Assembly: GCA_022792035.1 (NCBI GenBank) | Contig: JAAWAE010000099.1 | Coordinates: 1 to 64,000, forward strand | Direction of reading: 5' to 3' | Length of the DNA stretch: 64,000 nucleotides | Source of the DNA: Ruminiclostridium sp. | GTDB lineage: Bacteria; Bacillota; Clostridia; Oscillospirales; Oscillospiraceae | Part shown: in pieces, positions 12,110-14,547 of the stretch | How the letters are laid out: each line of letters starts with the position of its first letter | Numbering within the stretch: the first letter of the stretch is position 1 | Notes under the pieces: model-generated | Databases searched by the model: none | What the model was told of the DNA's origin: nothing | The model's input: the letters and a program-made list of their open reading frames with translations, nothing else | Translations under genes and position numbers: made by a program

Positions 12110-14302
12110 TTATAACTGGTCCAAGGGCAGCGTCTCTCCGTCCTGGAGAACCCGCACCCGGTCCTTCCAGCGGGCAAACGCCGGGATGGAAGAAAACTCC
12201 TCCGCCCGCTGGGTGTGCATGGGGACGACCCACTTCGGGTCCACCGTCTCCATCAGCTTGGCGATGGTCTCCACATAGGCGTGGCCGCTGGTGTGGAGGG
12301 TTTCGTAGGGGCGGCCGCCGATAAAGCGCAGCAGGGCTTCGTCGGCGTATCGCTTCTCCAGATATCCCGTCCACATAGAGTAGATGATCTGGCCGTCCAG
12401 GGGATAAAATTTATCCCGCATCCGTTCAAACACGTTCGGCCGCTCCGGCACAGAATTTTTCCGCGCCAGCATCACGAAGCCGTTGGCGTGCATCTGTCTG
12501 GCGTCTGCCACCTGGAAGTCCAAACGCACATCCGCCTGCTTGGCCTGCTCCCGCAGTTGGGCGCAGCGTTTTTTCATATACGCCGCCTGCCTGTGCTTTG
12601 TGGAGCCTTTCCAGGGTTTCCAGGGGACATGAATGACCGGGTGCTTAGCGGATGGCTGATACAGGGGATGGTCCTTTCGGGCTTTCATGGCGGTGAGCAG
12701 GATCTCCGCTTGATAATCATCGCAGACAAAGCAGTATCCTTCCGGCGTATGGTGGTAAAACTCCATGACGCTGTCCAGATTGGTGGAGGAAACCAACACG
12801 AAATTATATTTGTGCCGCCGGAACAACTCCTCCGCCTTCGCCCCCAGCTGCTCCTCTGTCTGGAGGGTGTTTGTGCTGACCGCCTGCTCCCGGGAGAGCA
12901 TGGTCCCTTCGGTGACCAGCAAATCGATCCCTCGGGGGACCTGTTCTTCCAACCTGCGCCAGAACCTGTCCTCTCCGCCAAAAAGGCCGTGCTCCCGGAA
13001 ATCCCCGGTGAACAGGATCTTTTTCCCCGCGGCCTGGATGTAGAACATATAGGCATCCGGTGCGGAGTGATCCACGCCGATGGGGCGCACGGAAATGTCC
13101 CGAAATGCCTGCAGCTCCTGCCCGTCCTGATAGGTGCCCATCCGCTCCACCGCCGGAAGGCCCCGATCCTTCGTGATAAAATCCAGACGGGAAACCAACA
13201 CTTTCAGAAGATCCTTCGCCAGCGGACCAATGTACATACGGACGCCTTCGGGCGTTTTTTTGTAAAGCCCATAGTGGTCGCCGTGGGAATGGGTGAACAG
13301 CAGGCCGTCGATCGGCCGGCCGTCAAAGACTACGGAGAGGAGCGTATCGTCCGAAACAGACGCGTTGGTATCCGGCAGATCGGCCCCCAGGTCGATCAGG
13401 ATCCGGCTTTCCCCGGCACTGAGTTCGGTACAGCAGCCGCCGATCTGGTGGCTGCCCCGATGGATGATCAATCTCGGCCCCATGCTGCTCCCATAAATTT
13501 CTTCGGTAAGGGACCGGAGCATCAGAAGATATCCTTCCAATCCAGGCTCGGGTTTCAGCAGCGGAACGGCGGTCTTTAAGCAGATGCTTCCCAGATTTTC
13601 GGGATGGACGTAAAATCCCCCGCAGTTCATTAGGCTTTCATGTGGTTCCTCTCCGTTCGGCGTAATATAAATCAGACGCAGTTTTTTCTGCCACAATGCC
13701 TTGCGGTCATTCACGTCAGGGCAAGCATCCAGTATCTGGCCGATTGTGTAGAGGTACTTATAGGTGGACGCTTTCCCCTCGCGTTTCAGCGTTTCCCTCG
13801 CCTGGGCCGCGTATGTCTTCTCCGGGGCATGGCCAGCGATGTTGGAAAAACTCGCGTTCAGTGTTTCCAGGTTCCAGGAACCGGTGTATTTCTTGCTGAG
13901 CATTCGCAGCAATTTATCCCCAAACACTTCGCCGAATGTTCTGGGGGTATGCCCTTCGTCTGCATCGCAGCAGCATTTGATATAATGTTCCGCTTGTTTG
14001 CCCTCAGTGCTGCCGAAGTTGGTTTTCAGTTCCACCAAATAGAGGTACTCTCCTACAAAGATGTAGTCAATTTTTGATCCTCTGTCATCTTTGGGGGGCG
14101 TGCCACCCGCTGAAACTTCTTCCATTGACATCTCTTTTGTCAAAAAAGCCGCATCAATACCACACTCGTTTCGGAGAATCTGCTGTATATAAGGGGTCAG
14201 CAGGGTATGCAGGATTACTTCCGCCTGGATGTTGGGGGTGAAGCAGTCGTTGACCACCCATTTTTTGATTTGTGCCATCAGACCGTTCCCTTGCTCCGCC
14301 AT
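12110..14302 (-). CDS. Fusion protein: N-terminal PD-(D/E)XK nuclease-like domain plus C-terminal beta-CASP/metallo-beta-lactamase-fold hydrolase (RNase J-like)
   Basis: N-terminus: AEVILHTLL...GSKIDYIFVGEYLYLVELKTN (D79 ... E91-x-K93). C-terminus: RLIIHRGSHQIGGCCTELSAGESRILIDLG, LLFTHSHGDHYGLY (HxHxDH), KILFTGDFREHG, LLVTEGTMLSRE, LHTSGHAYVETIAKLMETVDPKWVVPMHTQ. Confidence 0.8.
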   Translation of the reverse strand: MAEQGNGLMAQIKKWVVNDCFTPNIQAEVILHTLLTPYIQQILRNECGIDAAFLTKEMSMEEVSAGGTPPKDDRGSKIDYIFVGEYLYLVELKTNFGSTEGKQAEHYIKCCCDADEGHTPRTFGEVFGDKLLRMLSKKYTGSWNLETLNASFSNIAGHAPEKTYAAQARETLKREGKASTYKYLYTIGQILDACPDVNDRKALWQKKLRLIYITPNGEEPHESLMNCGGFYVHPENLGSICLKTAVPLLKPEPGLEGYLLMLRSLTEEIYGSSMGPRLIIHRGSHQIGGCCTELSAGESRILIDLGADLPDTNASVSDDTLLSVVFDGRPIDGLLFTHSHGDHYGLYKKTPEGVRMYIGPLAKDLLKVLVSRLDFITKDRGLPAVERMGTYQDGQELQAFRDISVRPIGVDHSAPDAYMFYIQAAGKKILFTGDFREHGLFGGEDRFWRRLEEQVPRGIDLLVTEGTMLSREQAVSTNTLQTEEQLGAKAEELFRRHKYNFVLVSSTNLDSVMEFYHHTPEGYCFVCDDYQAEILLTAMKARKDHPLYQPSAKHPVIHVPWKPWKGSTKHRQAAYMKKRCAQLREQAKQADVRLDFQVADARQMHANGFVMLARKNSVPERPNVFERMRDKFYPLDGQIIYSMWTGYLEKRYADEALLRFIGGRPYETLHTSGHAYVETIAKLMETVDPKWVVPMHTQRAEEFSSIPAFARWKDRVRVLQDGETLPLDQL

Positions 14303-14425
14303 ATTCCCGGCTCCTTTCTTCCGGAGGAATCCACTACAGAACTCTGACAGGCTTTTAAGTGTTTCTCCGTGTTTTTTTGATCTTCCGCTGTGTCCTTCAC
14401 TTTTTCTCGACTTTTATGAAAAAAA

Positions 14426-14460
14426 CGTTGTGCCGCAAGGTTTTCCCTTGCGGCACAACG
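14426..14460 (-). terminator. Intrinsic terminator of tRNA-Pro (15-bp perfect stem)
   Basis: cgttgtgccgcaagg-ttttc-ccttgcggcacaacg; on the minus strand followed by TTTTTT. Confidence 0.85.
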
Positions 14461-14470
14461 TTTTGCTGTT

Positions 14471-14547
14471 TGGTCCGAGTGACTGGATTCGAACCAGCGG
14501 CCTCTTGAACCCCATTCAAGCGCGATACCAAACTTCGCCACACCCGG
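14471..14547 (-). tRNA. tRNA-Pro(GGG), CCA encoded
   Basis: Minus strand CCGGGTGTGGCGAAGTTTGGTATCGCGCTTGAATGGGGTTCAAGAGGCCGCTGGTTCGAATCCAGTCACTCGGACCA; acceptor CCGGGTG/CACTCGG, anticodon stem CTTGA/TCAAG with loop ATGGGGT, TTCGAAT T-loop. Confidence 0.93.

Follow-up and report, generated by a model that had tools for sequence, protein, structure and literature searches.

A PD-(D/E)XK-like and beta-CASP fusion protein as a possible single-chain form of a mobile, partner-swapping nuclease pair

The protein encoded at 12110-14302 of the window, by which is meant the whole 64,000-nucleotide stretch of Ruminiclostridium sp. DNA that was analysed, is best explained as the single-chain form of a mobile, partner-swapping nuclease pair, with the pair serving as a defence against mobile elements. 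Judged from sequence, this explanation seems about evenly poised between holding and failing. The protein joins an N-terminal PD-(D/E)XK-like domain to a C-terminal beta-CASP metallo-beta-lactamase (MBL) domain, and in other genomes the MBL is usually a stand-alone gene adjoining a PD-(D/E)XK-like gene. The first-pass annotation had proposed a dual-nuclease single-gene system. The two-domain architecture with its intact motifs stands, but the gene is not an isolated oddity; it is rather a module that recurs elsewhere as two genes, sometimes more, here fused into one. The fused form itself was seen only once, in the draft genome of the window.

The fused gene, its two halves and its surroundings

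The open reading frame runs from 14302 to 12110 on the minus strand, a strand that the first-pass annotation had left unstated, and comprises 730 codons without an internal stop. It is present in a single copy in its own genome. The residues named earlier can all be read in the product: D79, E91 and K93, HSHGDH at 338-343, HTSGHA at 670-675 and PMHT at 694-697. A Shine-Dalgarno sequence, AGGAG (14311..14315), lies ahead of the ATG at 14302, and GGGAG occurs about 4 nt ahead of Met274 at the domain junction (13481..13492), both on the minus strand, as are all the protein features below. The latter could be an internal start, so that the MBL half might possibly also be made alone.

The C-terminal half, residues 276-730 (12113..13477), matches Lactamase_B_2 of Pfam (1e-10) and the RNase J subfamily (5e-14). 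It carries the metal motif H338-S-H-G-D-H343 (13274..13291), motif A as TE465GTML (12896..12913), motif B as H670-T-S-G-H674-A (12278..12295) and motif C as P-M-H696-T (12212..12223). Across 24 aligned members of its family, H338, H340, D342, H343, H412, D434, E465, H670/H674 and H696 are invariant or nearly so. With its metal ligands and motifs A, B and C all intact, this half belongs to the MBL/beta-CASP superfamily, which bears out the initial domain call. When the 24-member profile was compared with the PDB, the first match was EF2904 of Enterococcus faecalis (2AZ4; 1.5e-42), followed by RNase J (2.8e-32). EF2904, a hypothetical protein, is thus the closest solved relative of the family and a similarly short, RNase J-like chain of 429 residues; its entry gives no function, and its middle part does not align with the family. 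RNase J itself (TIGR00649, J1/J2) shares the MBL and beta-CASP organization as well as the metal motif and motifs A, B and C. It differs in that the MBL half reaches only 51.5 bits against the TIGR00649 cut-off of 400, in its length (550-803 aa, compared with mostly 382-455 aa in the MBL family and 455 aa for the window domain), and in being near-universal here while the MBL family is sporadic. It also lacks the signature SxWxGY, which is found in 24 of 24 family members, as SMWTGY at residues 642-647 of the window protein (12362..12379), and in 0 of 23 RNase J-like proteins from related genomes. A housekeeping RNase J was therefore rejected on score, length, signature and distribution, and these comparisons place the MBL family as a sister group of RNase J, related to it but distinct.

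The N-terminal half was analysed apart from the 24-row MBL alignment. It spans residues 1-270 (13493..14302), with a conserved core at about residues 11-107 and the active-site block KID79YIFVGEYLYLVE91LK93T at 14021..14074. No Pfam family matches it, and none of the profile libraries searched recognises residues 1-275. Its sole homologue found, L032:4427-5269, is a separate gene in an Agathobacter metagenome-assembled genome, two genes downstream of the MBL of that locus; none was found in the plasmids, phages and other class genomes searched. The block common to the two proteins, residues 11-107 including KIDY...LVELKT, has a local alignment score of 114, compared with a mean of 33 and a maximum of 57 for shuffles. 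D79, E91 and K93 are kept in the homologue, and few other blocks are as well conserved as the motif. Shuffling the same residues produced the active-site motif in 28 of 20,000 trials (0.14%). Against 51 families of neighbouring genes, the top match of the domain's profile was the MBL cluster, which itself holds the L032 homologue; the best of the other 50 was a PD-(D/E)XK family, c2, aligned on D79 and E91-x-K93 (P 3e-5). An AlphaFold model built with two sequences as input was uninformative (pLDDT 37). The earlier assignment to PD-(D/E)XK is thus favoured by the conserved D/E/K site and the c2 match but gains nothing from Pfam or structure prediction, and we consider it likely. The GC content of the domain is 0.504, below that of the MBL half (0.592) and of the window (0.615), and this lower value fits a separate origin of the two halves.

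Upstream of the gene lies a tRNA-Pro (14471-14547, minus strand), and between the two is a perfect, unstranded 19-bp inverted repeat with a T-run (14422..14464), which is likely the terminator of the tRNA transcript. Genes named from sequence as a DNA glycosylase and a NUDIX protein are among the window neighbours. Relatives in the genus keep the NUDIX gene and tRNA-Pro together while the content beyond the tRNA differs, which makes this a variable site within the genus. Acquisition beside the tRNA had been suggested previously. A search at tRNA-Pro for a duplicated tRNA 3' end gave none, and integration at the tRNA is for that reason unsupported.

A mobile MBL family with exchangeable partners

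The MBL family was delimited from three relatives in the genome collection (L031, L032 and L033, with 63, 46 and 43% identity to the MBL half) together with 13 plasmid records from Alpha- and Betaproteobacteria, Bacteroidota and Clostridia. Counting the window's own genome in each case, the MBL was found in 5 of 394 genomes of the order at E 1e-60 and in 13 of 391 genomes of the class at E 1e-30. With the wider 24-row profile, 16 of 290 phylum genomes pass 1e-30, a figure that takes in the window's genome, G474 again and some RNase J (L155 and L156, by length). No close copy was present in any of the 15 other genomes of the genus searched, where the proteins matched, at E 1e-7 to 1e-10, are as long as RNase J. 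Two IMG/VR contigs carry a family MBL; the first scans of viral contigs gave none, and the phage records only one weak match (25%). Broken copies with in-frame stops or split frames (L068:9346-10473, L069:5302-6429 and L154:1631-2901) represent repeated decay. The MBL gene is therefore accessory, mobile and sporadic, spanning Bacillota, Proteobacteria, Bacteroidota, plasmids and viral contigs, and it is not a core gene, which sides with the first-pass annotation.

At 32 of 39 family loci (25 of 32 in the first round and all 7 found later), a PD-(D/E)XK-like protein is either joined to the MBL in one chain or encoded no more than a few genes away, counts that are partly non-independent owing to near-duplicates (L073/L074, L072/L078 and L068/L069) and include three partners (L033, L070 and L148) that stand on motif or weak similarity. 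The partners belong to at least four families that BLAST does not link to each other. The c2 family, with the motif RIDxV...xEAK and invariant D151, E153, R170, D172, E189 and K191, occurs at 11 loci; c4 (GKIDLL...LELK) at 7 among the first 31 and at L090; c5 (AIDLWGI...ELK) at 3; and the N-domain family in the window and L032. The singletons are L070, whose match to PDDEXK_4 at 1e-3 is below threshold, and L033, which was judged by eye. One locus, L072, carries both c2 and c5. Partners may lie upstream or downstream of the MBL, and the two genes often overlap, frequently by 3-8 bp. Among the seven first-round loci without a partner, two are broken (L068 and L069), two are cut by contig ends (L077 and L079), and the remaining three (L039, L047 and L051) have an intact MBL with no clear PD-(D/E)XK partner among the genes around it. 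The seven later loci, from six phylum genomes and one IMG/VR contig, have c2 (L149, 4e-22), c4 (L150, L152 and L153), c5 (L151 and L154) or L148_6260 (EPDMLAI...LLEVK), the last assigned by its motif and weak BLAST similarity.

A D...E-x-K pattern, composed after the families were known and fixed before the later seven loci, matched 21 of 561 open reading frames, all of them the fused gene or partners, and then 4 of the 7 later loci. It occurs within 1.5 kb at 25 of 39 family loci, compared with 1 of 26 RNase J loci (Fisher 4e-7). In the reverse direction, all five plasmid records bearing c2 have an adjoining MBL, and the only c4 match on a viral contig lies in an operon of c4, an HTH-like gene, the MBL and a second PD-(D/E)XK gene. 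Relatives of c2 occur without the family MBL in 3 of 5 class genomes. The linkage is thus strong when MBL loci are the starting point and looser when c2 is. In a confident AlphaFold model of c4 (pLDDT 78), the D lies at strand 2 and the ExK in strand 3; a Foldseek comparison of this model with the PDB gave no match below 0.001, the non-significant ones including N.BspD6I, the R2 protein and Cap4.

The partner changes independently of MBL phylogeny. On the tree of 24 MBLs there are 14 changes of partner label, compared with 14.5 for shuffled labels. The MBLs of L067, L070 and L071 are 79-83% identical, and their partners are c4, PDDEXK_4-like and c5, respectively; those of L048 and L049 are 71% identical and pair with c4 and c2. 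Likewise, the MBL of the window and that of its nearest relative, L031, are 64% identical, the former with its fused N-domain and the latter with a c2 partner.

Comparison with known systems and possible function

The D...E-x-K site of the N-domain and the partners is common to the PD-(D/E)XK superfamily (NERD, PDDEXK_4, PDDEXK_5 and HamA). Weak matches to these were given by c4 (NERD, 3e-5) and by the L070 partner (PDDEXK_4, 1e-3), and the N-domain, c2, c4 and c5 are covered by no curated PD-(D/E)XK family. Among the PADLOC 2023 profiles there is no match for the window protein, the family MBLs, the N-domain homologue, c2 or c5, and c4 matches only the Viperin-associated NERD profile (3e-5). 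The trypsin-MBL module (HamM, with AVAST, Lamassu and DRT versions) contains a ComEC-like MBL that is activated by a fused protease, and likewise combines a constant MBL nuclease with an exchangeable defence protein (PMC12799240). In the present family, in contrast, the MBL is of the beta-CASP type and the partner is a PD-(D/E)XK protein, and no trypsin-like protease was noticed among the MBL neighbour genes read. Cas14 of type VII CRISPR is likewise a beta-CASP nuclease in prokaryotic immunity, but it is longer, the window protein scores 13 bits against the Cas14 cut-off of 800, and no CRISPR genes were noticed in the window or the neighbouring loci read. The literature on McrBC/CoCoNuTs and DefensePredictor looked close and proved to describe other systems. 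As the first-pass annotation knew of no described system of this architecture, so none combining beta-CASP and PD-(D/E)XK was found in the profile libraries or the open-access literature searched (newer defence databases lay outside the search), and the nuclease pair is provisionally regarded as undescribed.

Features of this kind are typical of conflict systems: one nuclease is swapped while its companion enzyme stays the same, the genes are mobile, and copies decay. In its fuller form, the proposal would be a new mobile immune module in which a constant beta-CASP enzyme other than RNase J works with a freely exchangeable PD-(D/E)XK protein from unrelated families as a two-step nuclease, the window protein being its natural one-chain version; this we hold tentatively, as having somewhat less than an even chance. 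We infer that both halves would be active nucleases acting on one substrate. The module would target incoming or foreign genetic elements, with the PD-(D/E)XK protein as the variable effector or specificity nuclease that makes the first cuts or chooses the substrate. Relatives of the beta-CASP enzyme combine trimming of nucleic acid from the 5' end with internal cutting, and the constant enzyme would process the product or license the effector. Fusion would hold the two activities at 1:1. The check for enrichment in defence islands gave the following: restriction systems lie within 8 kb of 3 of 7 annotated plasmid loci (a GmrSD-like DUF262, McrBC and an Eco57I type) and of 0 of 7 control stretches on the same plasmids, which is suggestive but not significant on this small sample (Fisher about 0.1). 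Until now, the roles ascribed to beta-CASP enzymes have been chiefly RNA processing, DNA repair and type VII CRISPR. Should the pair prove to be a defence system, a modular type built from two nucleases, one of them beta-CASP, would join those known, and swapping around a constant enzyme predicts partners with different targets or triggers. This would also provide names and a testable function for many genes annotated as "hypothetical" or "MBL fold metallo-hydrolase", and for biochemical work the fusion conveniently offers both domains in one natural protein.

The polymorphism of partners around a constant gene, the frequent 3-8 bp overlaps, the toxin-antitoxin genes near the MBL in two plasmid loci and the 1:1 ratio kept by fusion would also suit a toxin-antidote or abortive module. 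Here the PD-(D/E)XK protein would be a toxic nuclease whose mRNA or product the constant beta-CASP enzyme would degrade, restraining it until the cell is infected or stressed, and the swapping of toxins would explain their diversity. An antidote normally tracks its toxin, yet MBLs about 80% identical pair with unrelated nucleases; the order of the partners is variable, both active sites look intact, and we judge this arrangement unlikely. Given that the closest biochemically known relatives are RNA-processing and DNA-repair nucleases, and that a DNA glycosylase and a NUDIX gene are near the fused gene, the pair could instead clean damaged ends or RNA, in Artemis/SNM1- or RNase J-like housekeeping without a role in conflict. 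This is quite improbable: the very sparse spread, the copies on plasmids and viral contigs, the rapid exchange of partners and the broken genes at L068, L069 and L154 are unlike housekeeping, and the repair genes are a local feature, none having been seen next to the MBL elsewhere.

Two further readings appear very doubtful, and to the same degree. In one, the MBL would hydrolyse a nucleotide signal or modified nucleotide and thereby gate the PD-(D/E)XK effector. Calcineurin-like metallophosphoesterase genes are next to the MBL or in its vicinity at four loci in three phyla (L033:8979-9680, L039:9443-10012, L045:9203-9859 and L071:11557-12255), and a gene named from sequence as ADP-ribosylglycohydrolase-like, L031:8245-9990, stops 1 bp short of the MBL gene in the closest relative. 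There is also a precedent in phage, where one signal-degrading nuclease has the MBL fold. Phages are known to encode nucleases that destroy immune nucleotide signals (PMC9117128). Against this, it is enzymes acting on nucleic acids that typically have a complete beta-CASP insertion with motifs A, B and C, as here, and the loci share no recurring cyclase or sensor gene. In the other, the D...E-x-K of the N-domain would be fortuitous or left over from a lost activity, and the gene would be no more than a paralogue of RNase J to which an unrelated segment has been added. While the lack of a Pfam match or confident structure and the single homologue would allow this, the motif's conservation in L032 and its rarity among shuffles, the c2 family as best profile match and the recurrence of the same partner type beside the MBL argue for the nuclease assignment.

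Further genes and fusions at the MBL loci

A domain of about 120 aa, starting with F-x-Y-G-L-T/S or a similar sequence, is repeatedly found next to the MBL as part of a larger protein whose other portion is either a winged HTH or a DEDD 3'-5' exonuclease (RNase_T, 2e-12); the domain itself has no Pfam name. It was found at L048:9793-10794, L049:7766-8767, L067:8527-9267, L070:8711-9310, L071:10220-10876, L090:6756-7490, L148:7621-8223 and L152:6666-7322. Within PADLOC 2023, the DEDD exonuclease beside the L049 MBL matches only a general nuclease profile. Small proteins of about 124-158 aa, three of them with "GIFWMV", form one BLAST cluster beside the MBL on alphaproteobacterial plasmids (L041:7405-7989, L042:7546-7950, L044:9250-9624 and L047:7552-7995). 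Finally, L050:8687-10486 is another fusion: this family MBL has a membrane region at its N terminus and a part resembling a zinc ribbon (CPNCGS...CMSCGK), which suggests a membrane-tethered version of the MBL.
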